NCBI RefSeq assembly: GCF_000376385.1
Contig: NZ_AQWN01000008.1
Coordinates: forward strand, 62,001-126,000
DNA from: Desulfurispora thermophila DSM 16022
GTDB lineage: Bacteria > Bacillota > Desulfotomaculia > Desulfotomaculales > Desulfurisporaceae
Length of the DNA: 64,000 nucleotides
Direction of reading: 5' to 3'
This document shows, piece by piece, positions 10,837 through 58,720 of this stretch (position 1 is its first letter; every line of letters begins with the position of its first letter). The notes beneath the pieces were generated by a model that worked only from the letters and a program-made list of their open reading frames with translations, was not told the origin of the DNA and did no database searches. The position numbers and the translations under genes are program-made.

Positions 10837-12672
10837 TCAGCTGGTCTCCACCACACCCCGGTATTCCGCCTCCTGCCGTAAAAACGGGTGCCGGCCGCGG
10901 GGCACGTAGCTGGTGTGCAGGTATTTCCTGGCCACTTCCGAGAGCGGCTGGCCCAGGAATTCGCGGTAAATCTGCTGGATGCGCGGGTTTTCGTGGGAGC
11001 GGCGGATCTCCTTGCCCCGGTCGATGTTGTACAGGGCGTCGGCCCGGTTGTGGCGGTAACTGAGGGAAAGGTATTTCAGATCCCGGCCGCTTAAAATGGG
11101 CTGGCCGCCGCCGCCCACGCAGCCGCCCGGACAGGCCATTACTTCCATGTAGTCAAAACGCCTTTCGCCGCTCTTGAAAGCCTCCAGCGCCCGGCGGGCG
11201 TTGCCCGCGCCGTGGGCCACGGCCACGGTGATGGTCTTGTCTCCCAGCTTCACGCTGCCGTACTTGAGACCGCTCTGGCCGCGGGCTTCCTCGAAATCGG
11301 GCACGGACATCTCCCGCCCCGTGATCAGTTTGTGCGCCGTGCGCACGGCAGCTTCCAGCACGCCGCCCGTGGCGCCGAAGATCATCCCGGCGCCGCTGTA
11401 CTGGTCGAAGGGTTCATCGTAGGGCTCGTCGGGCAATTCCGGGAAGTTCAGGCCCACCTCCCGGATCATGCGGGCCAGTTCCCGGGTGGTCAGGACATAG
11501 TCAATATTGCGCAGGCCGTCGCACTCCATTTCGGGGCGGGCGGCCTCGTATTTTTTGGCCGTGCAGGGCATGATGGCCACATTGACCATGCGCTGCGGGT
11601 CAATATTATGCTGCCGGGCGTACCAGGACTTGGTCAGGGCGCCGCACATGGCGTGGGGCGACTTGGTGGAAGAAAGGTGGGGCAAAAACTCCGGGTAAAA
11701 ATGCTCGGCGTATTTCACCCAGCCCGGGCAGCAGGAGGAGAGCAGGGGCAGCTTTTCCGGTTGGTGCAGCAATCTTTCCATCAGTTCGCTGCCCTCTTCC
11801 ATGATGGTCAGGTCGGCGGTGACGTCTGTAGCAAAGACCCGGTCGAAGCCCAGGTGGCGCAGCGCCGCCACCAGTTTGCCGGCCACAAAGCTGCCCATGG
11901 GCATGCCGAACAGTTCCCCGATGGTCACCTGGATGGAGGGGGCGGTTTGGACCACCACCAATTTGTCCGGGTCGGCAATGGCCCGCCACACTTCGGCAAT
12001 GTGTTCCTTCTCGGTCAGCGAGGCGGTGGGGCAGGCCAGCACGCACTGGCCGCACATGATGCAGCTGACTTCGGCCAGATCCTTCTGGAAGGCGGGAGCG
12101 ATGACCGTGTTCAGCCCCCGGTAAAGGGGCGAATAGACGTAGCACTCCTGGATTTTATTGCAGATGGCCAGGCAGCGCCGGCAGTGGATGCACTTGTTGT
12201 AGTCACGCTGGATGGCCGGGTTGTGGTCGAAAAAGCCGTAGTCCTTCATTTCGCCGGTGAAGGGAATGTTGCGGATGCCCAGGCTGTCGGCCACGTTCTG
12301 CAGCTCGCAGTTTAAATTGCGGATGCAGGTGGTGCACTCCCGGTGGTGGTTGGAGAGCAGCAGGGTGACCGCGGTTTTTCTGGCCCGGCGCACCCGCTCG
12401 GTGTTGGTGCGCACTACCAGCCCCTCCCGCACCGGGTAGACGCAGGAGGCCTGCAGGGTGCGGGCTCCCTCGATTTCCACCACGCAGACCCGGCAGGCGC
12501 CGATTTCGTTGATGTCCTTCAAATAGCACAGGCTGGGAATTTCAATATTTACCGTGCGGGCGGCCTCAAGCACGGAAAGGCCGCGCGGCACCCGGTAGTC
12601 CCGGCCGTCGATGTTGATGGTGACCATTTCTCCGGCCGCCTTGATTTCTTCCTTCTCGCGCAGGTTTTCCAT
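10837..12672 (-). CDS. hndD: [FeFe] hydrogenase catalytic subunit (HndD/HydA type)
   Basis: About 611 residues. Domains in order: [2Fe-2S] plant-ferredoxin-like part (Cys near 49, 60, 63, 77), His-ligated cluster (HHRECTTCIRNLNC near 109-122), two [4Fe-4S] clusters (CIHCRRCLAIC and CIMCGQCVLACP near 161-215), then the H-cluster domain with all three signatures: SSCCPGW near 312, MPCTAKKYE near 368 and MACPGGCVGGGGQP near 520. The C-terminus contains the small-subunit-like tail. The start is ATG 12672 after AGGAGGAAAGAAC; an open extension to 12912 has no homology. Partner subunits are encoded at 13175-15597 in the same orientation. Role: reversible H2 formation or oxidation coupled to NAD(H) and ferredoxin by flavin-based bifurcation. 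Confidence 0.95.
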   Translation of the reverse strand: MENLREKEEIKAAGEMVTINIDGRDYRVPRGLSVLEAARTVNIEIPSLCYLKDINEIGACRVCVVEIEGARTLQASCVYPVREGLVVRTNTERVRRARKTAVTLLLSNHHRECTTCIRNLNCELQNVADSLGIRNIPFTGEMKDYGFFDHNPAIQRDYNKCIHCRRCLAICNKIQECYVYSPLYRGLNTVIAPAFQKDLAEVSCIMCGQCVLACPTASLTEKEHIAEVWRAIADPDKLVVVQTAPSIQVTIGELFGMPMGSFVAGKLVAALRHLGFDRVFATDVTADLTIMEEGSELMERLLHQPEKLPLLSSCCPGWVKYAEHFYPEFLPHLSSTKSPHAMCGALTKSWYARQHNIDPQRMVNVAIMPCTAKKYEAARPEMECDGLRNIDYVLTTRELARMIREVGLNFPELPDEPYDEPFDQYSGAGMIFGATGGVLEAAVRTAHKLITGREMSVPDFEEARGQSGLKYGSVKLGDKTITVAVAHGAGNARRALEAFKSGERRFDYMEVMACPGGCVGGGGQPILSGRDLKYLSLSYRHNRADALYNIDRGKEIRRSHENPRIQQIYREFLGQPLSEVARKYLHTSYVPRGRHPFLRQEAEYRGVVETS

Positions 12673-12800
12673 GTTCTTTCCTCCTGCCGTCCGGCCGCGC
12701 AAGTTTCCCCGATTCGCTGGGCCGGGCGATTTCCGAATGATGTACGGGAAGTTTTTTCCGTTTTGGCCAGTGCTACAGCGTAATTTATAAACCGCTAATT

Positions 12801-13157
12801 GCGGGTGTGCATCCTTCGCTCGCCCGAATTGGACCGGGCGGCACCGGCAGCTCGGTCGCGGCTGGGACAATGCAGTGCGAGCATGTGCAACGCTCGCCCG
12901 ATCGCTACGCACCGGACGGCACTACGGCTGGCGGCGGACTCAGCCGGACCGCCCCAGATTCGACATCCTGTCGAAAGCTAGGGCTGGGCCGGACATCCGT
13001 GTCCGGCCCTCCGGCTTCGTTACCGCCGCTGCGCCTAGTGCCGTATGCCGGTGCTCCGCCACGGGCTCGCTTTTGCACACTGCTCGCCAGCGAGCTGGCT
13101 TTCATGTTCTGCACAGCTGGTACTCCAGACGGGCTCGCTCAGGAAGATCACACCCGC
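12801..13157 (-). repeat. foldback (long palindromic) element, copy A, inside the hydrogenase operon
   Basis: 357 bp whose ends are inverted repeats: GCGGGTGTG at 12801 and CACACCCGC at 13149-13157, followed inward by CGCTCGCCCG and CGGGCTCGC. Further long-range complementarity covers most of the length, with two apical hairpins: GGGCCGGAC/GTCCGGCCC (12986-12994 with 13001-13009) and TTCGACA/TGTCGAA (12959-12965 with 12969-12975). The minus strand reads AGCGAGCCCGTCTGGAGTA in the sense of transcription, as in copies B and C. Not coding: open frames across it are GC-rich noise. It separates hndC from hndD and would be part of their transcript. Confidence 0.8.
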
Positions 13158-13174
13158 CACTTTACGCTGTAGTA

Positions 13175-15073
13175 CTAGCGCTTGTAAATGGCCTCCACCG
13201 GACATTTGGCAATGCAGGCCCCGCACTTGATGCAGATGTCCTGGTGGATGTGATAGGGCGGCTTTTTGCGCTCGCCGCTGATGGCGTTCACCGGGCAGAT
13301 GCGGGCGCAGATGCCGCAGGCAATGCATTTTTCGTCGGAAATGATCACCCGCAACAGGCCGTGGCACACCCCGGCCGGGCAGCGCTTTTCTTTAATATGG
13401 GCGATGTATTCGTGGCGAAAATATTCCAGGGTGCTCAGCACCGGGTTGGGGGCGGTCTGGCCCAGGCCGCACAGCGAGGCGTCCTTGATGTCGTGGCAGA
13501 GGTCCTCCAGCAGCTGCAGATCCTCCATCTCACCCTTGCCGGCGGTAATGCGCTCCAAAATTTCCAGCAGGCGTTTGGTGCCCACCCGGCAGGGCACGCA
13601 TTTGCCGCAGGACTCGTCCTGGGTGAACTCCAGATAAAAGCGGGCGATGTCCACCATGCAGTCGGTCTCGTCCATGACAATCAGGCCGCCCGAGCCCATC
13701 ATGGAGCCGATCTCGGCCAGCGACTTAAAGTCAATGCGGGTGTCCAGGTGGGCGGCCGGGATGCTGCCCCCGGAAGGGCCGCCCGTCTGCACGGCTTTGA
13801 AAGCCCGCCCTTCCGGAATGCCGCCGCCAATGTCGTAAATGATCTCCCGCAGGGTGGTGCCCATGGGCACTTCAATCAGGCCGGTGTTGACAATCTGGCC
13901 GGCCAGGGCGAAAACCTTGGTGCCCTTGCTGTCGGGCGTCCCGATGCCGGCATACCATTCGCCGCCCCGGCGCAGAATGACCGGAATATTGGCAAAGGTC
14001 TCCACATTGTTGTTTAAAGTGGGTTTTTCCCACAGTCCCACTTCGGCCGGGAAGGGAGGACGGGGGCGGGGTTCGCCCCGCAGGCCCATCACCGACTGGA
14101 TCAGGGCGGTTTCCTCACCGCAGACAAAGGCGCCGGCCCCCAGGCGGATGTCCAGGTGAAAGGCAAAACCGCTGCCCAGGATGTTGTCGCCCAAAAGGCC
14201 CAGCTGCCGGGCCTGGTCGATGGCGATTTCCAGCCGCTGGACGGCGATGGGATACTCGGCCCGCACATAGATATAGCCCTGGCGGGCGCCGATGCAGTAA
14301 CCGGCAATGATCATGGCCTCCAGCACGCTGTGCGGGTCGCCTTCCAGGATGGAACGATCCATGAAAGCACCCGGATCGCCCTCGTCGGCATTGCAGAGCA
14401 CATACTTGGTATCGCCGGGGTAACCGGCCGCGTATTCCCATTTCAGCCCGGTGGGAAAGCCGGCGCCGCCCCGGCCGCGCAGGCCGGACTTCTTCACTTC
14501 TTCGATTATTTCCTGCGGCGGGGTGCGCCGGGTTAAAATTTCCCCCAGAGCCCGGTAGCCGTCCAGGGCGATGTATTCCGTGATGTCCTCCGGGTTGATC
14601 ACCCCGCAGTTGCGCAGGGCGATGCGCAGCTGTTTGCGGAAGAAGTCGATCTCGTCCATGGTGCGCTGGAGCTGGCCGGTGCGGGGAGAGTGGTAGAGCA
14701 GCCTTTCCACCACTTTGCCGTGGGCCATGTGGCTGTCCAGTATTTCATCCACATCCTCGGGCTGCACATGGATGTAGAAAGTGCGGTCGGGGTGCACCAC
14801 CATGACCGGTCCCATCTTGCAAAAGCCGAAGCAGCCGGTTTTGAATACCTTTACCCGCTCGCCCAGGCGGCGCTTGCGGATCTCCTCCTCCAGCCGGGCA
14901 CGAACCTGATGGCTGCGGGAGGAAGTGCAGCCCGTGCCGCTGCAGACCAGTATGTGGTAGAGGGGCAGGTTTTCCTCCAGCGGTGTGCCGGATAAGCGCA
15001 GTTTGATGGCCTGGTAGGTTTCTTCCTGCAGTTTGCGCAGGTCGTCCAGCGACTTGAGCTTTTTCAGGGACAA
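13175..15073 (-). CDS. hndC: NADH-binding flavoprotein subunit of bifurcating hydrogenase (HndC/HydB, NuoF-like)
   Basis: 632 residues. Residues about 35-125 form a thioredoxin-like [2Fe-2S] domain (LVCSGTGCTSSRSHQVRARL; FKTGCFGFCKMGP), i.e. the HndB part fused to the N-terminus. The NuoF core follows: FMN site GLRGRGGAGFPTGLKW, NADH site GAGAFVCGEETALI, and the cluster motif SCGKCVPCRVGTKR. The C-terminus has two ferredoxin motifs (CIACGICARICPVN; CIKCGACIAKCPVE). This is the domain layout of HydB/HndC of trimeric bifurcating hydrogenases. The gene lies 17 bases after hndA. Confidence 0.95.
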   Translation of the reverse strand: MSLKKLKSLDDLRKLQEETYQAIKLRLSGTPLEENLPLYHILVCSGTGCTSSRSHQVRARLEEEIRKRRLGERVKVFKTGCFGFCKMGPVMVVHPDRTFYIHVQPEDVDEILDSHMAHGKVVERLLYHSPRTGQLQRTMDEIDFFRKQLRIALRNCGVINPEDITEYIALDGYRALGEILTRRTPPQEIIEEVKKSGLRGRGGAGFPTGLKWEYAAGYPGDTKYVLCNADEGDPGAFMDRSILEGDPHSVLEAMIIAGYCIGARQGYIYVRAEYPIAVQRLEIAIDQARQLGLLGDNILGSGFAFHLDIRLGAGAFVCGEETALIQSVMGLRGEPRPRPPFPAEVGLWEKPTLNNNVETFANIPVILRRGGEWYAGIGTPDSKGTKVFALAGQIVNTGLIEVPMGTTLREIIYDIGGGIPEGRAFKAVQTGGPSGGSIPAAHLDTRIDFKSLAEIGSMMGSGGLIVMDETDCMVDIARFYLEFTQDESCGKCVPCRVGTKRLLEILERITAGKGEMEDLQLLEDLCHDIKDASLCGLGQTAPNPVLSTLEYFRHEYIAHIKEKRCPAGVCHGLLRVIISDEKCIACGICARICPVNAISGERKKPPYHIHQDICIKCGACIAKCPVEAIYKR

Positions 15074-22184: not shown

Positions 22185-22466
22185 AATGAAGCAGGCGAGA
22201 GAAGCGGGTGTAAAGCGCCCGGACCGAAGATGTAATCCGCGCCCGGCCGGGGTGGCGGAGAAACTTTCAGGTAAAAGGATCGCCTGCCGACACAGCTCTG
22301 GAAAGTCGCTCCGGGCGACGCCGAAGGAGCAAGCGCTTTTGCAGTGTGCCGGACCCGCGGGAGCAGGGTTTTGCCGGGCAGGGCACAATGGCAAAAGAGT
22401 GAATCTCTCAGGTGAATCAACAGAGCAAAGGCAACAGTGTATTGCCTTTGCTCTGTTTTCTTTTTT
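22185..22466 (+). ncRNA. tandem glycine riboswitch with terminator
   Basis: Two glycine aptamers in series. Aptamer 1: P1 GCAGGCGA (22191-22198) with TCGCCTGC (22280-22287), conserved GAGAGAAGC and AACTTTCAGGTAAAAGGA. Aptamer 2: P1 GCTCTG (22295-22300) with CAGAGC (22421-22426), conserved GCCGAAGGAGCAAGC and GAATCTCTCAGGTGAA. The terminator hairpin 22420-22434 / 22442-22456 plus TTTTCTTTTTT reuses CAGAGC, so P1 of aptamer 2 and the terminator exclude each other. Glycine binding should therefore prevent termination and switch the glycine cleavage operon on. Confidence 0.93.
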
Positions 22467-37950: not shown

Positions 37951-38115
37951 AAAATAAACGCCGCCCCGAAAAGGGCGGCGCAGGTCTGGCTGCTCTAAAA
38001 AACAGCCTGGCCCGGCGCGCTCCTTTCCGAATGCGGGAGGCCGGGCAATTTCTCGCCCGACCCTGACGGCCTGTTGCCATAGCGGTTGCCTTAGGCGATT
38101 CAGGCTCGGAGCACG
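37951..38115 (-). ncRNA. Moco/Tuco-type riboswitch with terminator
   Basis: On the minus strand the segment 38115 to 37981 has the conserved pieces of the moco RNA: GTGCTCCGAGCC, AAGGCAACC, a hairpin CGGGC-GAGAAATT-GCCCG (38063-38043), then GGCCTCCCGCATTCGGAAAG and GAGCGC, which parallel the E. coli moaA leader (CGCCTCCCGTATCTGGAAAG). It is followed by a terminator CGCCGCCC-TTTTC-GGGGCGGCG and TTTATTTT (37980-37951). It lies 100 bases before tupB, so molybdenum or tungsten cofactor should control tungstate uptake through transcription termination. Confidence 0.85.
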
Positions 38116-38208
38116 GGTTTTAGATAGCTTTTTAAAAATTATAAGCTACTGATAACGGTATGACAAGTGCGAAAAATTCTCCTTCGCCCACTGCTGGCTT
38201 GCCTGTGT

Positions 38209-53062: not shown

Positions 53063-54583
53063 ATGAAACTGCTACTGCTGGGTATTTTTGTGGTTGTGCT
53101 GCTGGGCTGCGGGCTCTACAGCATGAGCCGGGCGCGCACTGTGCAGGAGTTTTTCCTGGGCGACAGGGGGGTGGGTCCCTGGCTGTCGGCTTTCGCGTAC
53201 GGCACCACATACTTTTCAGCAGTTATTTTTATTGGTTACGCCGGCAAGGTGGGCTGGGGCTTCGGCCTGTCCTCGCTGTGGATTGTGCTGGGTAACACTC
53301 TGCTGGGTAGCCTGCTGGCCTGGCTGGTGCTGGCCCGGCGCACCAGGCTCATGACCACCCGCCTGGGCGCCATGACCATGCCCGAGTTTCTGGGCGTTCG
53401 CTACCGGGACAACAACCTGAAAATTTTCTCCGCTCTGGTTATCTTCATCTTCCTGGTTCCCTACTCGGCTTCGGTATACATGGGCTTAAGCTACCTGTTC
53501 AACCAGATCTTTGGCATCCCTTACCTCTATGTGGCCGTCTTCATGTGCGTGCTCACCGGCCTGTACCTGGTGCTGGGCGGCTACCGGGCGGTGGCCCTGA
53601 CCGACTTCATCCAGGGCCTGGTGATGATTGGCGGTGTAGCTGTTTTGCTCTACTATGTACTGCACGCTCCCCAGGTGGGTGGCCTGAAGGGCTTTTTGCC
53701 CGCTCTCAAAGCGCACAATCCGGCCCTGACCAGTCCCTTCGGACCGGAGGGCGGGCGGCTGGCCCTGCTTTCCCTGGTGCTGCTTACCAGCCTGGGCCCC
53801 TGGGGGATGCCCCAGATGGTGCAGAAGTTTTACGCCATTCGCGATGAGGCGGCCATCCGCCGGGCCATGATTGTGGCCAGCCTGTTTGCCCTGATTATCA
53901 CTTTTGGCGCTTATTTCTCGGGCTCGCTCACCCATCTCTTTTTCGACCGCCTGCCGGTCGACCCGGTGAGCGGCAAGCCCACGCCCGACTTGCTCATGCC
54001 CATTCTGCTCAAGAATCTGCTGCCCGAGCTGGCGGCCACATTGATTTTGCTGCTGGTGCTGTCGGCTTCCATGTCCACACTGGCTTCGCTGGTGCTGGTG
54101 AGCGCTTCCAGCATTTCTATCGATCTGACGGTGGCCCTGGGCCTTAAACTCAGCCCGCGCGGCGGCATCAACCTTCTGCGCCTGCTGTGCGCTCTATTCA
54201 TCGCCCTGTCACTGGTCATTGCCCTGCTGAAACCGGCCATCATCCTCAGCCTGATGGCCATGTCCTGGGGGGCGGTGGCCGGGTTCTTCCTGGCCCCGTA
54301 CCTGTACGGCCTGTTCTGGCGCGGTGCCACTCCGGCCGGGGCCTGGGCGGCCGGCCTCACCGGTCTGACCGTGGCGGTGGTGGGCTCGCTGTACTTCAAG
54401 CTCAATCCGGCCGTCATTCCCCAGGTTGGCTGCGCGGCCATGCTGGTGCCCCTGCTGGTGCTGCCCCTGGTCAGCCTGGTCACGCCGGCCTTAAATAAGG
54501 AACATGTGGAAAAAGTTTTCGGGGCCCTGGCCCCGGCCGATAAAGCATTCTTGCTCACAGGTAAGGAAGTGGAAAGCACATGA
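53063..54583 (+). CDS. sodium:solute symporter (SSS/PutP family)
   Basis: About 506 residues with about 13 membrane segments (LLLLGIFVVVLLGCGLYSMS; SAVIFIGYAGKVGWGFGLSS; VALTDFIQGLVMIGGVAVLL; ALFIALSLVIALLKPAIILS). GGYRAVALTDFIQG and SASMSTLASLVLVSASSISI are SSS-family signatures with Na+ ligands. Imports an organic anion or amino acid; the operon suggests an arylacetate or amino acid. ATG 53063 with GGAGG 9 bases upstream; the ATG at 53054 touches the GGAGG. Overlaps the ligase gene by 4 bases. Confidence 0.9.
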   Translation: MKLLLLGIFVVVLLGCGLYSMSRARTVQEFFLGDRGVGPWLSAFAYGTTYFSAVIFIGYAGKVGWGFGLSSLWIVLGNTLLGSLLAWLVLARRTRLMTTRLGAMTMPEFLGVRYRDNNLKIFSALVIFIFLVPYSASVYMGLSYLFNQIFGIPYLYVAVFMCVLTGLYLVLGGYRAVALTDFIQGLVMIGGVAVLLYYVLHAPQVGGLKGFLPALKAHNPALTSPFGPEGGRLALLSLVLLTSLGPWGMPQMVQKFYAIRDEAAIRRAMIVASLFALIITFGAYFSGSLTHLFFDRLPVDPVSGKPTPDLLMPILLKNLLPELAATLILLLVLSASMSTLASLVLVSASSISIDLTVALGLKLSPRGGINLLRLLCALFIALSLVIALLKPAIILSLMAMSWGAVAGFFLAPYLYGLFWRGATPAGAWAAGLTGLTVAVVGSLYFKLNPAVIPQVGCAAMLVPLLVLPLVSLVTPALNKEHVEKVFGALAPADKAFLLTGKEVEST

Positions 54584-55893
54584 TCTGGGACCCCCAGCAC
54601 GAGTGTATGGAGAGAGAACAAATGCAGGCGCTGCAGTTGCAGCGCCTGCAGCAGGTTGTGGCCCGGGCGTACGACCGGGTCGCTTTTTACCGGCAGCTTT
54701 TTGACGAAAAGGGAATCCGGCCGCAGGATGTGCGCAGCCTGGCGGACCTGGCCCGCCTGCCCTTCACCACCAAGGACGCCCTGCGGGAGAACTACCCCTA
54801 TGGCCTGTTTGCCGTGCCCATGCAGCAAATAGTCCGCCTGCACGCCTCCTCGGGCACCACGGGCAAGCCCACTGTAGTGGGTTACACCAGAAACGACCTG
54901 AACACCTGGGCCGAGTTGGTGGCGCGCATGGTTACCCAGGCCGGGGTGACCAGCGGCGACATTGCCCAGATCACCTTTGGCTACGGCCTGTTCACCGGCG
55001 CCTTTGGCCTGCATTACGGTTTGGAAAGGGTGGGGGCGGCCATTGTGCCGGCCTCGGTGGGCAACACCGAAAAGCAGATCACCCTGATGCAGGATTTCGG
55101 CACCACCGTGCTGGTGGGTACGCCCTCCTATGCCCTGCACCTGGCCGAAGTGGCCCGGGGCATGGGGGTGGATCCGGTGGCGCTGCCCGTGCGCCTGGGT
55201 CTTTTCGGCGCCGAAGCCTGGACCGAGGAAATGCGCCGGGAACTGGAGGCGGCCTGGGGCATCAAGGCCACTGACAACTACGGACTGAGTGAGATCATCG
55301 GCCCGGGGGTGGCCGGCGAATGCGGCCATAGTCCGGGCTGGATGCACATTTCCGAGGATCATTTCCTGGCCGAGGTAATCGATCCCCACACCGGCCAGCC
55401 CCTGGGCCTGGAGCAGGAAGGTGAGCTGGTGATCACCACCCTGACCAAAGAGGCCCTGCCCCTGATTCGCTACCGCACCAAAGATATTACCGTGCTCACC
55501 GCGCAGCCCTGTGCCTGCGGCCGCACCACGTTGCGCATGCGCAAAGTGAGCGGGCGCAGCGATGATATGCTCATTGTCTCGGGCGTCAACGTCTTTCCCT
55601 CGCAGATTGAGAGCGTGCTCATGTCCATTGAGGGTATCGCCCCCCATTACCAGATCATCCTGGGCAAGAAAGGTTACCTGGACTATATTGAGGTGCAGGT
55701 GGAATTGACCGAGGAGGCCTTCACCGGCCAGTTCCGCGATCTGGAGGAACTGGAGCGGCGCATCAAAACCCGCCTGCAGAGCGTGCTGTCCATTGGCCCG
55801 CGGGTGCGCCTGCTGGAGCCGCACTCTATCGAGCGCAGCCAGGGCAAGGCCAGGCGGGTGATTGACCTGCGCCGCCAGCCTCAAGACAAATAA
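54580..55893 (+). CDS. paaK: phenylacetate-CoA ligase (PaaK-type)
   Basis: 437 residues. AMP-binding signature RLHASSGTTGKPTVVGYTRN, DNYGLSEIIGPGVAGEC, LIRYRTKDIT, and the C-terminal lid VSGRSDDMLIVSGVNVFPSQ, IERSQGKARRVIDLR. Makes arylacetyl-CoA from arylacetate, ATP and CoA (or the reverse to gain ATP). Next to iorAB, whose product is arylacetyl-CoA. Confidence 0.93.
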   Translation: MIWDPQHECMEREQMQALQLQRLQQVVARAYDRVAFYRQLFDEKGIRPQDVRSLADLARLPFTTKDALRENYPYGLFAVPMQQIVRLHASSGTTGKPTVVGYTRNDLNTWAELVARMVTQAGVTSGDIAQITFGYGLFTGAFGLHYGLERVGAAIVPASVGNTEKQITLMQDFGTTVLVGTPSYALHLAEVARGMGVDPVALPVRLGLFGAEAWTEEMRRELEAAWGIKATDNYGLSEIIGPGVAGECGHSPGWMHISEDHFLAEVIDPHTGQPLGLEQEGELVITTLTKEALPLIRYRTKDITVLTAQPCACGRTTLRMRKVSGRSDDMLIVSGVNVFPSQIESVLMSIEGIAPHYQIILGKKGYLDYIEVQVELTEEAFTGQFRDLEELERRIKTRLQSVLSIGPRVRLLEPHSIERSQGKARRVIDLRRQPQDK

Positions 55894-55924: not shown

Positions 55925-56134
55925 GCAGGTGTGTCTATCCTGAGCGAGCCCGTCTGGAGTAACGGTTGCAGCACCCGGCGAGGGCGCGGCAGCGGGCCGG
56001 GAGGCGCGGACAGGACGTCCGCGCCAGCCCCAGTTGAGACACGATGTCGAATCTGGGGCGGCCCGGCCCGCCCGCGACCGAGCCGCTGGTGCTGCCCGTT
56101 ACGAAATTCGGGCGAGCGCAGGATACACACCTGC
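55925..56134 (+). repeat. foldback (long palindromic) element, copy B
   Basis: 210 bp between paaK and iorA. Outer stem GCAGGTGTGT (55925-55934) / ACACACCTGC (56125-56134), continuing TATCCTGAGCGAGCCCG / CGGGCGAGCGCAGGATA and GTAACGG / CCGTTAC. Apical hairpins GGCGCGGAC/GTCCGCGCC (56003-56011 with 56017-56025), CCCCAG/CTGGGG (56028-56033 with 56053-56058) enclosing GACA/TGTC. Versus copy A, stem positions change on both sides (GCGGGTGTG/CACACCCGC to GCAGGTGTG/CACACCTGC; GGGCCGGAC/GTCCGGCCC to GGCGCGGAC/GTCCGCGCC). ATGTCGAATCTGGGGCGG is shared unchanged. Confidence 0.85.
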
Positions 56135-56190: not shown

Positions 56191-57963
56191 ATGACCCGTA
56201 AAATGATGACGGGCAATGAAGCCATTGCCCGGGGCGCCTACGAGTACGGCGTGCGCCTGGGGGCGGGCTACCCCGGCACCCCCAGCACGGAAATCCTGGA
56301 AAACTTCGCCCGCTACCCGGGCATTTACGCCGAATGGGCCCCCAACGAAAAGGTGGCCCTGGAAGTGGCCATCGGCGCGGCCATGGCCGGAGCCCGCGCC
56401 CTGGTGACCATGAAGCACGTGGGCGTGAACGTGGCCGCCGACCCGCTGCTTACCCTGGCCTACACCGGCGTAAACGGCGGTCTGGTGCTGGTGGCGGCCG
56501 ACGACCCGGGCATGCACAGCTCGCAAAACGAACAGGACACCCGCCATTACGCCCGCCTGGCCAAAGTGCCCGTGCTGGAGCCTTCCGACAGCCAGGAGGC
56601 CAAGGACATGGTGGGTCTGGCTCTGGAAATCAGCGAGCGCTTTGACATCCCGGTCATCCTGCGCACCACCACCCGGGTGGCTCACTCCCAGAGCTTTGTG
56701 CAGGTGGGCCAAAGGCAGGAGGTACCCCTGCGCCCCTACCAGAAAGATGTGCAGAAGTGGCTCATGGTGCCCGCTTTCGGCCGGCTGCGCCGCCAGGCGC
56801 TGGAGCAGCGTCTGAGCGCCTTAAGAGAATATGCCGAAAGTGCGCCGGTGAACAAAATATTCCCCGGTGAGGGCAAAATAGGCGTGATCACTTCGGGCAT
56901 CAGCTTCCAGTATGTAAGAGAACTGCTGCCCGGGGCCAGTATCCTCAAGCTGGGCCTCACTTACCCGCTCCCCGAGCAACTGATTAAAAAGTTTGCCGCC
57001 GGTGTGGACAGGCTGCTGGTGGTGGAAGAGCAGGAACCCTTCCTGGAAGATCATTTGAAACAGTGGGGCATCCCCTGCGCGGGCAAAGCCATCTTCCCGG
57101 CCATGGGAGAGTTCAGCACGGCCCTTTTGCGCCGCTGTCTGCAACAGGCCGGCATACTGCCCGCCGCGGCCGCAGAAGGCGCCCCCGATCTTTCGGACAT
57201 GCCCGCCGCGCCGGTACGCCCGCCCGTGCTGTGCGCCGGCTGTCCGCACCGCGGTGTCTTCTATTTGCTGAACAAAATGAAACTGCTGGTGACAGGCGAC
57301 ATTGGCTGCTACACCCTGGGCGGCCTGCCGCCCCTGTCGGGCATTGACAGTTGCGTATGTATGGGGGCCAGCATCGGTATGGCCCACGGCATAGGCCAGG
57401 TGGCGCCCGAGCTGGGCCGCCGCACCGTGGCCGTGATTGGCGACTCCACCTTCATGCACTCGGGCCTCACCGGCCTTTTGAATGTGGTTTACAACCGGGG
57501 CAGCAGCGTGGTGCTCATCCTGGACAACAGCACCACGGCCATGACCGGCCACCAGGACCACCCGGCCACCGGGCGCACCCTGCTGGGGCAGGAGGCGCCA
57601 GCGGTGGACATGGTGGCTCTGGTGCGGGCCCTGGGCGTACCCCATGTGGTTACAGTGGATCCGCTGGACTTAAAAGCAATGCAGCAGGCCCTGGAAGAGG
57701 CCCTGGCCGCGGATGGCCCGGCCGTGATCATTGCCCGCCGGCCCTGTGTGCTGCTGCGCAAACTGCCCCCCAACCCGGTGGCGGTGGATGAAGATAAGTG
57801 CACCGGCTGCAAAACCTGTTTGAAGCTGAGCTGTCCGGCCCTGTCCGTGGTGGACAAGAAATGCCGGGTGGACAGCATCGCCTGTGTGGGTTGTAATCTG
57901 TGTGTGCAGGTGTGCAAATTTGCCGCCCTGCAGGCTGCCCAAAGGGGTGAGACCAATGCTTGA
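56191..57963 (+). CDS. iorA: indolepyruvate:ferredoxin oxidoreductase alpha subunit
   Basis: 590 residues. Start TRKMMTGNEAIARGAYEYGV, GYPGTPSTEILENFARY, TMKHVGVNVAADPLLTLAYT; TPP-binding part with CAGCPHRGVFYLLNKM, GDIGCYTLGGLPPLSGIDSC, GDSTFMHSGLTGLLNVVYNR, LDNSTTAMTGHQDHPATGRT; C-terminal ferredoxin domain CTGCKTCLKLSCPAL and CVGCNLCVQVCKFAAL. Oxidises arylpyruvates to arylacetyl-CoA, reducing ferredoxin. Overlaps iorB by 8 bases. Confidence 0.96.
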   Translation: MTRKMMTGNEAIARGAYEYGVRLGAGYPGTPSTEILENFARYPGIYAEWAPNEKVALEVAIGAAMAGARALVTMKHVGVNVAADPLLTLAYTGVNGGLVLVAADDPGMHSSQNEQDTRHYARLAKVPVLEPSDSQEAKDMVGLALEISERFDIPVILRTTTRVAHSQSFVQVGQRQEVPLRPYQKDVQKWLMVPAFGRLRRQALEQRLSALREYAESAPVNKIFPGEGKIGVITSGISFQYVRELLPGASILKLGLTYPLPEQLIKKFAAGVDRLLVVEEQEPFLEDHLKQWGIPCAGKAIFPAMGEFSTALLRRCLQQAGILPAAAAEGAPDLSDMPAAPVRPPVLCAGCPHRGVFYLLNKMKLLVTGDIGCYTLGGLPPLSGIDSCVCMGASIGMAHGIGQVAPELGRRTVAVIGDSTFMHSGLTGLLNVVYNRGSSVVLILDNSTTAMTGHQDHPATGRTLLGQEAPAVDMVALVRALGVPHVVTVDPLDLKAMQQALEEALAADGPAVIIARRPCVLLRKLPPNPVAVDEDKCTGCKTCLKLSCPALSVVDKKCRVDSIACVGCNLCVQVCKFAALQAAQRGETNA

Positions 57964-58552: not shown

Positions 58553-58720
58553 GTGTGTGCCAATCCTTCAGCGAGCCCGTCTGGAGTACCGGCTGCAGCA
58601 CCCGGTGAGGGCGCGGTAGCGGGCCGTATATAAACGTGCGCGGCAGTGTCCACACTCGCTCCGTACTACACACCGACGGCACTACGGCGCGGCTGCGGGC
58701 CGCACCTGCGCGGCGCTCAT
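58553..58720 (+). repeat. foldback element, copy C (degenerate)
   Basis: GTGTGTGCCAATCCTTCAGC followed by GAGCCCGTCTGGAGTACCGG, CTGCAGCACCCGGTGAGGGC and GCGGTAGCGGGCCG matches the left half of copy B almost base for base. The right half (ACGGCACTACGG near 58676, also found in copy A) is only partly kept and the closing CACAC end is missing. Same orientation relative to transcription as copies A and B. Confidence 0.7.

Follow-up and report, generated by a model that had tools for sequence, protein, structure and literature searches.

A dispersed foldback element with the TwoAYGGAY RNA motif at its core, probably mobile, non-autonomous and the carrier of an RNA with two CsrA-binding sites, in Desulfurispora thermophila and its relatives

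The window, as the whole 64,000-nt stretch of Desulfurispora thermophila DSM 16022 contig NZ_AQWN01000008.1 analysed here is called, contains two long foldback sequences, copy B and the longer copy A, together with a truncated third copy. The features at these loci are listed below in window coordinates; genomes, contigs and loci are cited by our handles G, C and L, G000 being the window's genome.

54580-55893, + strand: gene upstream of copy B, an AMP-binding enzyme with an AMP-binding_C_2 domain, phenylacetate-CoA-ligase-like (Pfam PF14535, PF00501)
55925-56134, + strand: copy B, a foldback element of 210 nt, full length for the family in this genome (folding z score; relatives in the genome)
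56000-56064, + strand: match of copy B to the core of RF01731 TwoAYGGAY, 49.3 bits, gathering score 43, model positions 46-112 (Rfam)
56003-56025, + strand: apical hairpin 1 of copy B, GGCGCGGAC-aggac-GTCCGCGCC, its loop carrying GGA as part of a CsrB-type repeat, CAGGAC; inside the RF01731 match (alignments, pair counts)
56027-56059, + strand: apical hairpin 2 of copy B, with the loop CACGATG and a GA-rich internal loop in its stem (alignment)
56191-57963, + strand: gene downstream of copy B, indolepyruvate ferredoxin oxidoreductase alpha-like (POR_N, TPP_enzyme_C, Fer4; Pfam)
58555-58626, + strand: third copy, truncated, 5' arm only (blastn, C8:120555-120626, 89% identity)
10837-12672, - strand: gene downstream of copy A, the large subunit of an iron-only hydrogenase with a NuoG-like N-terminus (Pfam PF02906, PF02256, PF10588)
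12770-12783, no strand: outer terminal inverted repeat of copy A, GTGCTACAGCGTAA (read in the sequence; the same repeat in L006, L013 and L014)
12801-13157, - strand: copy A, a longer member of 357 nt with extra nested stems between its outer and apical parts; outer stem and apical hairpins common to copy B (fold)
12902-13061, - strand: full-length match of copy A to RF01731 TwoAYGGAY, 64 bits, gathering score 43, model positions 1-168 (Rfam)
12951-12984, - strand: apical hairpin 2 of copy A, loop ACAGGATGT (sequence, alignment)
12986-13009, - strand: apical hairpin 1 of copy A, loop ACACGGATGT, an ANGGAN hexaloop, RsmE/CsrA-like (sequence, alignment)
13162-13175, no strand: the other arm of copy A's outer inverted repeat, TTACGCTGTAGTAC, which runs up to the upstream gene's stop codon (read in the sequence)
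13175-15073, - strand: gene upstream of copy A, a NuoF-like subunit (Complex1_51K; Pfam PF01512, PF10589)

Copy B folds as one long rod, running almost from end to end and tipped by the two apical hairpins; none of 200 dinucleotide shuffles was equally stable (folding energy z = -10.96), and 75% of the bases are paired, which bears out its earlier description, made from the sequence alone, as almost wholly self-complementary. The same holds for copy A (z = -8.21). The compensatory changes that this sequence-only reading had proposed between the arms of the two copies were found where it placed them, as was the shared 18-mer ATGTCGAATCTGGGGCGG, which occurs once in each of copies A and B, with 0.11 matches expected by chance (up to 3 mismatches). 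GGA has been lost from loop 2 of copy B, where CGA stands in its place, whereas CAGGANG is kept in most copies, and the outer inverted repeat seen in copy A is decayed in most of them. Simple scans beside copy B revealed no sigma-70-like promoter site (consensus scan) and no terminator or T-tract on the sense strand. A smaller palindrome, GCGAGCGNNGCACATGCTCGC, lies within copy A (about 12877-12897; L040:1578-1598) and also near L012, L033 and L037/L043, and looks like a second, nested repeat family. Elsewhere in the window, Rfam models match a Moco/tungsten riboswitch (RF01055, 71 bits, 38004-38123, - strand) and a glycine riboswitch aptamer (RF00504, 63 bits, 22186-22292, + strand).

As judged by the covariance-model matches, the foldback core is the Rfam family RF01731, TwoAYGGAY; both copies score above the gathering threshold, so that the earlier impression of a family not previously described does not stand. 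RF01731 belongs to Rfam clan CL00106, to which an identical scan also assigned E. coli CsrB. The loops read ACAGGAYGU, with ACACGGAUGU in copy A, a type equivalent to that of the CsrB repeats and RsmE sites. Weinberg et al. (2010, PMC2864571), who reported TwoAYGGAY from human gut, gammaproteobacteria and Clostridiales, classed it as a probable RNA that is probably without a cis-regulatory role; its loops have since been noted to match the CsrA-binding motif, with CsrA binding predicted (PMC4333381). The RNA family and the suspected link with CsrA are thus already known; in a limited literature search no description was found of mobility, of duplicated terminator hairpins or of an association with csrA for TwoAYGGAY, and the insertion behavior, the selection on the RNA and the csrA enrichment reported below appear to be new.

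A search for further copies, proposed in the sequence-only reading, found them both in relatives and throughout the 2.82-Mb genome of the window, where 45 blastn matches correspond to about 40 distinct places. Twenty-seven copies are near full length, with 85-93% identity, and they align over about 210 nt, the flanks being unalignable except for the decayed outer inverted repeat TACTACAGCGTAA ... TTACGCTGTAGTA. RF01731 matches at 28 places (23 above gathering), mostly over model positions 46-112 only, while copy A and a few others match positions 1-168. Two contigs end within copies (L028, G000:C5:1-117, and L030, the end of G000:C8), which means that the actual number of copies could be slightly different and that the contigs may join there. 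Another repeat, GCAAGTCGCTCGCTTTGGATAA-TGCCGCGC, adjoins several copies of the genome (flanks of L021, L022 and L023).

The uniform orientation of the copies relative to their flanking genes, put forward earlier as an argument for an RNA and against a freely inserting element, holds for the three copies of the window (3/3) and fails genome-wide: between same-strand gene pairs 15 copies are sense (16 with copy A) and 6 antisense (binomial p = 0.05), and 6 further copies sit in convergent or divergent gaps. The argument was rejected on these counts, though there may be a mild sense bias in the window's genome. In the relative G010, 5 copies are sense and 6 antisense; the genes around copies were called with a simple codon-usage caller, and strands may be misassigned, chiefly in G030 and G039. 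Where a copy is antisense, the GGA loops would not be displayed by host transcripts.

Comparison of gene pairs across genomes shows copies A and B to be insertions, since they interrupt pairs that are adjacent, in the alignments, in other families. At copy B the aligned gap is 333 bp here versus 31-138 bp in at least a dozen other genomes (for example 49 bp in G066, 85 in G051 and 115 in G010), and some other genomes have larger gaps, of about 220-380 bp; at copy A the gap is 16 bp in G029 versus 504 bp here and 84 bp in G028 versus 569 bp here, and it is some 440-490 bp shorter in G007, G010, G028, G050 and G068. No flank duplication above background was detected for the 27 copies of the window's genome, and no terminators of the kind described below for G010 were seen at the sites of copies A and B; the mode of insertion in this genome is therefore read from the relatives together with the gene-pair comparison.

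The distribution of the element among relatives is patchy: it occurs in 21 of 80 relatives, 27 of 113 genomes of the class and 51 of 398 genomes sampled in the phylum, many of them multi-copy, and G000, G010 and G039 carry 28-30 copies each while several members of the genus of G010 have none. The element termini in G010 and G007 read CAGACTGTAGACAAA ... TTTGTCGACACTCTG, with two near-identical hairpins bracketing the elements; the similarity between left and right flanks has a median of 18-19 at the same site versus 6.5-7 between different sites. Within a strict set of 15 elements of 42-266 bp from these two genomes, 14 have a duplication, usually joined to the inverted repeat with no base between, and hairpins are formed by 13 of the 14; the duplications measure roughly 17-26 bp. 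Two sites on contig 13 of G010 have empty counterparts at the orthologous gene pairs of congeners. At the first, ATGCCCGTT..AACGGGCAT is double in G010 and single, with no element, in G061 and G043; at the second, the terminator is single and the element absent in G061 and G034. Duplicated flanks and empty sites, which the sequence-only reading had named as evidence for a mobile element, were thus found in relatives. No same-site excess was obtained in G030 and G039, where the limits of the elements were only roughly trimmed, and no clear terminator duplication was seen by eye at inserted members in G351, G328, G383, G398 and G181.

Some elements of G010 and G007 consist of little but their ends (L113, L115, L117 and L118, 42-59 bp; L114, L116 and L125, 111-115 bp). 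These short forms of 42-115 bp have lost the GGA hairpins, and the duplicated terminator hairpins still flank them; they are either later deletion products or mobile derivatives that transposed as short forms. No match to the element was found on phages, plasmids or viral contigs, and hence there is no sign of such carriage. A stringent pattern scan of genome contigs, too stringent to serve as a census, returned 9 stretches (Desulforamulus, a Peptococcaceae MAG, a Bacillota MAG and one Thermoanaerobaculia MAG). The TwoAYGGAY elements of G351 (L161, L162 and L164) are contained in, or adjacent to, larger inverted repeats that include GAGTCACGGGGACGGTTCT. A group IIC intron, which also targets terminators, was considered and rejected: no intron family is among the Rfam matches in the window, and the element is too short. 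In G010 a loxP-like sequence, ATAACTTCGTATAGCATACATTATACGAAGTTAT, unusual for a natural genome, lies inside a tandemly duplicated region (L126, G010:C10:84200-86000) and is possibly an assembly or library artefact.

Covariation was gauged on 31 aligned cores from 24 genomes, with the two-hairpin structure, by comparing pair counts with shuffles and with partners slid by 1-3 columns. In this alignment 87.9% of the cells are paired, and the paired columns have an average majority identity of 70%; double-change cells number 126, whereas shuffling gives 34.8 on average and sliding the partners 8-30, and the covariation score is 0.601 versus 0.165. Within the window's genome, double changes occur in 23 of 77 consensus pairs among 23 full copies. 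The loops, by contrast with the stems rewritten between lineages, retain GGA: it is kept in loop 1 of 29, loop 2 of 28 and both loops of 26 of the 31 sequences, with at least one in every sequence. The covariation for which the sequence-only reading had proposed a search is thus strong, and the alignment supports selection acting on the RNA form of the element. That earlier reading had posed a structured RNA and a palindromic MITE as alternatives; the evidence backs the two at once, not one against the other.

The element is also found preferentially with csrA, which is present in 22 of 27 element-bearing genomes versus 40 of 86 others among the 113 of the class (Fisher p = 0.0017, with genome size and assembly quality outside the model). 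In the 80 relatives, a set that overlaps the former so that the two tests are not independent, csrA occurs in 19 of 21 element-bearing genomes versus 29 of 59 others (p = 0.0007; within-family permutation p = 0.034). The element-bearing genomes with csrA undetected (G062, G063, G081, G091 and G097) are multi-contig assemblies, some of them well below full completeness. The window's genome has one csrA, whose protein is similar to solved CsrA structures and whose neighbors, read by eye, seem to be of flagellar type (L041).

Taken together, these data point, with somewhat better than even confidence, to a dispersed, non-autonomous mobile element that carries a two-site CsrA-binding RNA with the TwoAYGGAY core, a reading in which we infer the CsrA binding, the expression and the transposase. 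On this reading the element has no gene of its own, is built around the TwoAYGGAY RNA core and inserts between genes as DNA, in G010 and G007 at intrinsic terminators, with duplication of the terminator hairpin. A transposase acting in trans may cut both strands at the base of the extruded terminator hairpin and so generate a duplication of hairpin length. As a functional hairpin with its T-tract would be left on the outer side, insertion would do little harm; the duplicate lacking the T-tract would let transcription read into the element, and the outer duplicate would still terminate it. Transcription would usually proceed by read-through from the neighboring gene and yield the long rod with its two GGA-loop hairpins, across which one CsrA dimer would most probably bind in a sense transcript. 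Each sense copy could then provide CsrA with a local site in a 3' UTR or between cistrons, and all copies together could serve as a distributed CsrA decoy.

The main rival, which we consider rather unlikely, is a foldback MITE acting purely at the level of DNA, in which hairpins and GGA loops would serve transposase recognition, arm pairing would be maintained by intrastrand repair or template switching, and the RNA would have no function. It accounts for the dispersal, the inverted termini, the duplicated terminator hairpins and the empty sites, for the inconsistent orientation and for derivatives as short as 42 bp that lack the GGA hairpins and are flanked by the same duplications. It is, however, at odds with the fact that divergent elements retain GGA, on a single strand, in both loops: an unpaired, conserved and strand-specific motif is left unexplained by DNA-level correction, which could keep arm pairing alone. 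The match of the motif to the CsrB repeat, the place of the family in the CsrB clan and the association with csrA also argue against it.

A fixed, non-mobile cis-regulatory RNA, that is, an attenuator or leader for the downstream genes, is disfavored and very improbable. Copies A and B are both in sense orientation, within short intervals separating co-directional genes, and Rfam gives RF01731 the type label 'Cis-reg'; nevertheless, the flanking genes have nothing in common by Pfam, some copies are antisense, the element is patchy among congeners and has empty sites, the sense strand of copy B has no terminator-like T-tract, and Weinberg et al. scored the motif as probably not cis-regulatory (PMC2864571). 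Least probable of all are REP/REPIN-type palindromes spread by a RAYT (TnpA_REP) HUH transposase, which would likewise be intergenic, palindromic and of high copy number, but are palindromes of 20-40 bp versus about 210-360 nt here, and would have to accommodate the target duplication of G010 and G007, to our knowledge not expected from HUH transposition.

A bolder form of the reading as a mobile element with a CsrA-binding RNA, which we advance tentatively and regard as falling short of an even chance, is that of a class of mobile element with a two-site CsrA decoy RNA as its sole cargo, entering terminators by hairpin duplication in such a way that the terminator stays usable. If so, expansion of the element would provide the host with a genome-wide, evolvable CsrA sponge or with 3'-UTR CsrA sites, and the element itself may need hosts that have CsrA. 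Since 2010 TwoAYGGAY has remained an orphan among RNA motifs; its spread as an insertion element, with CsrA-like loops kept under strong selection, would link mobile elements with global post-transcriptional control. FliW is the known antagonist of CsrA in Firmicutes; the element would offer a testable answer to how CsrA might be antagonized in this group, and natural pairs of occupied and empty sites are at hand for experiments.

Among known systems, bacterial MITEs resemble the element in being short, geneless, intergenic and dispersed, with inverted repeats and, in the relatives studied here, duplicated flanks; they differ in that the element carries a conserved, covarying RNA and duplicates a whole terminator hairpin. 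Insertion sequences of the IS1202 group produce long target duplications of 16-28 bp, with targets reported as not found (PMC10132070), a length comparable to the roughly 17-26 bp of the relatives; their ends are 5'-TGT...ACA-3', whereas the outermost ends of the G010 element are CAGA...TCTG, with TGT/ACA 5 nt inside, and the group may be taken as a lead for the element's transposase. The CsrA-sequestering sRNAs of CsrB/RsmZ type (clan CL00106) likewise have hairpins whose loops carry GGA in the form CAGGA(N)G, at least two sites on each RNA and a csrA gene in the genome; the element differs in that each of its numerous, dispersed units has only two sites, a long rod-like outer stem and no recognized promoter of its own. 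Closest is RF01731 TwoAYGGAY itself, with which the element has in common the two adjacent GGA-loop hairpins, the GA-rich internal loop and an outer stem, matched over the full model by copy A and a few others, both cores scoring above the curated threshold; the family was described as a probable RNA of unknown function, whereas here it is multi-copy and inserting, with duplicated terminator hairpins and empty sites in relatives.
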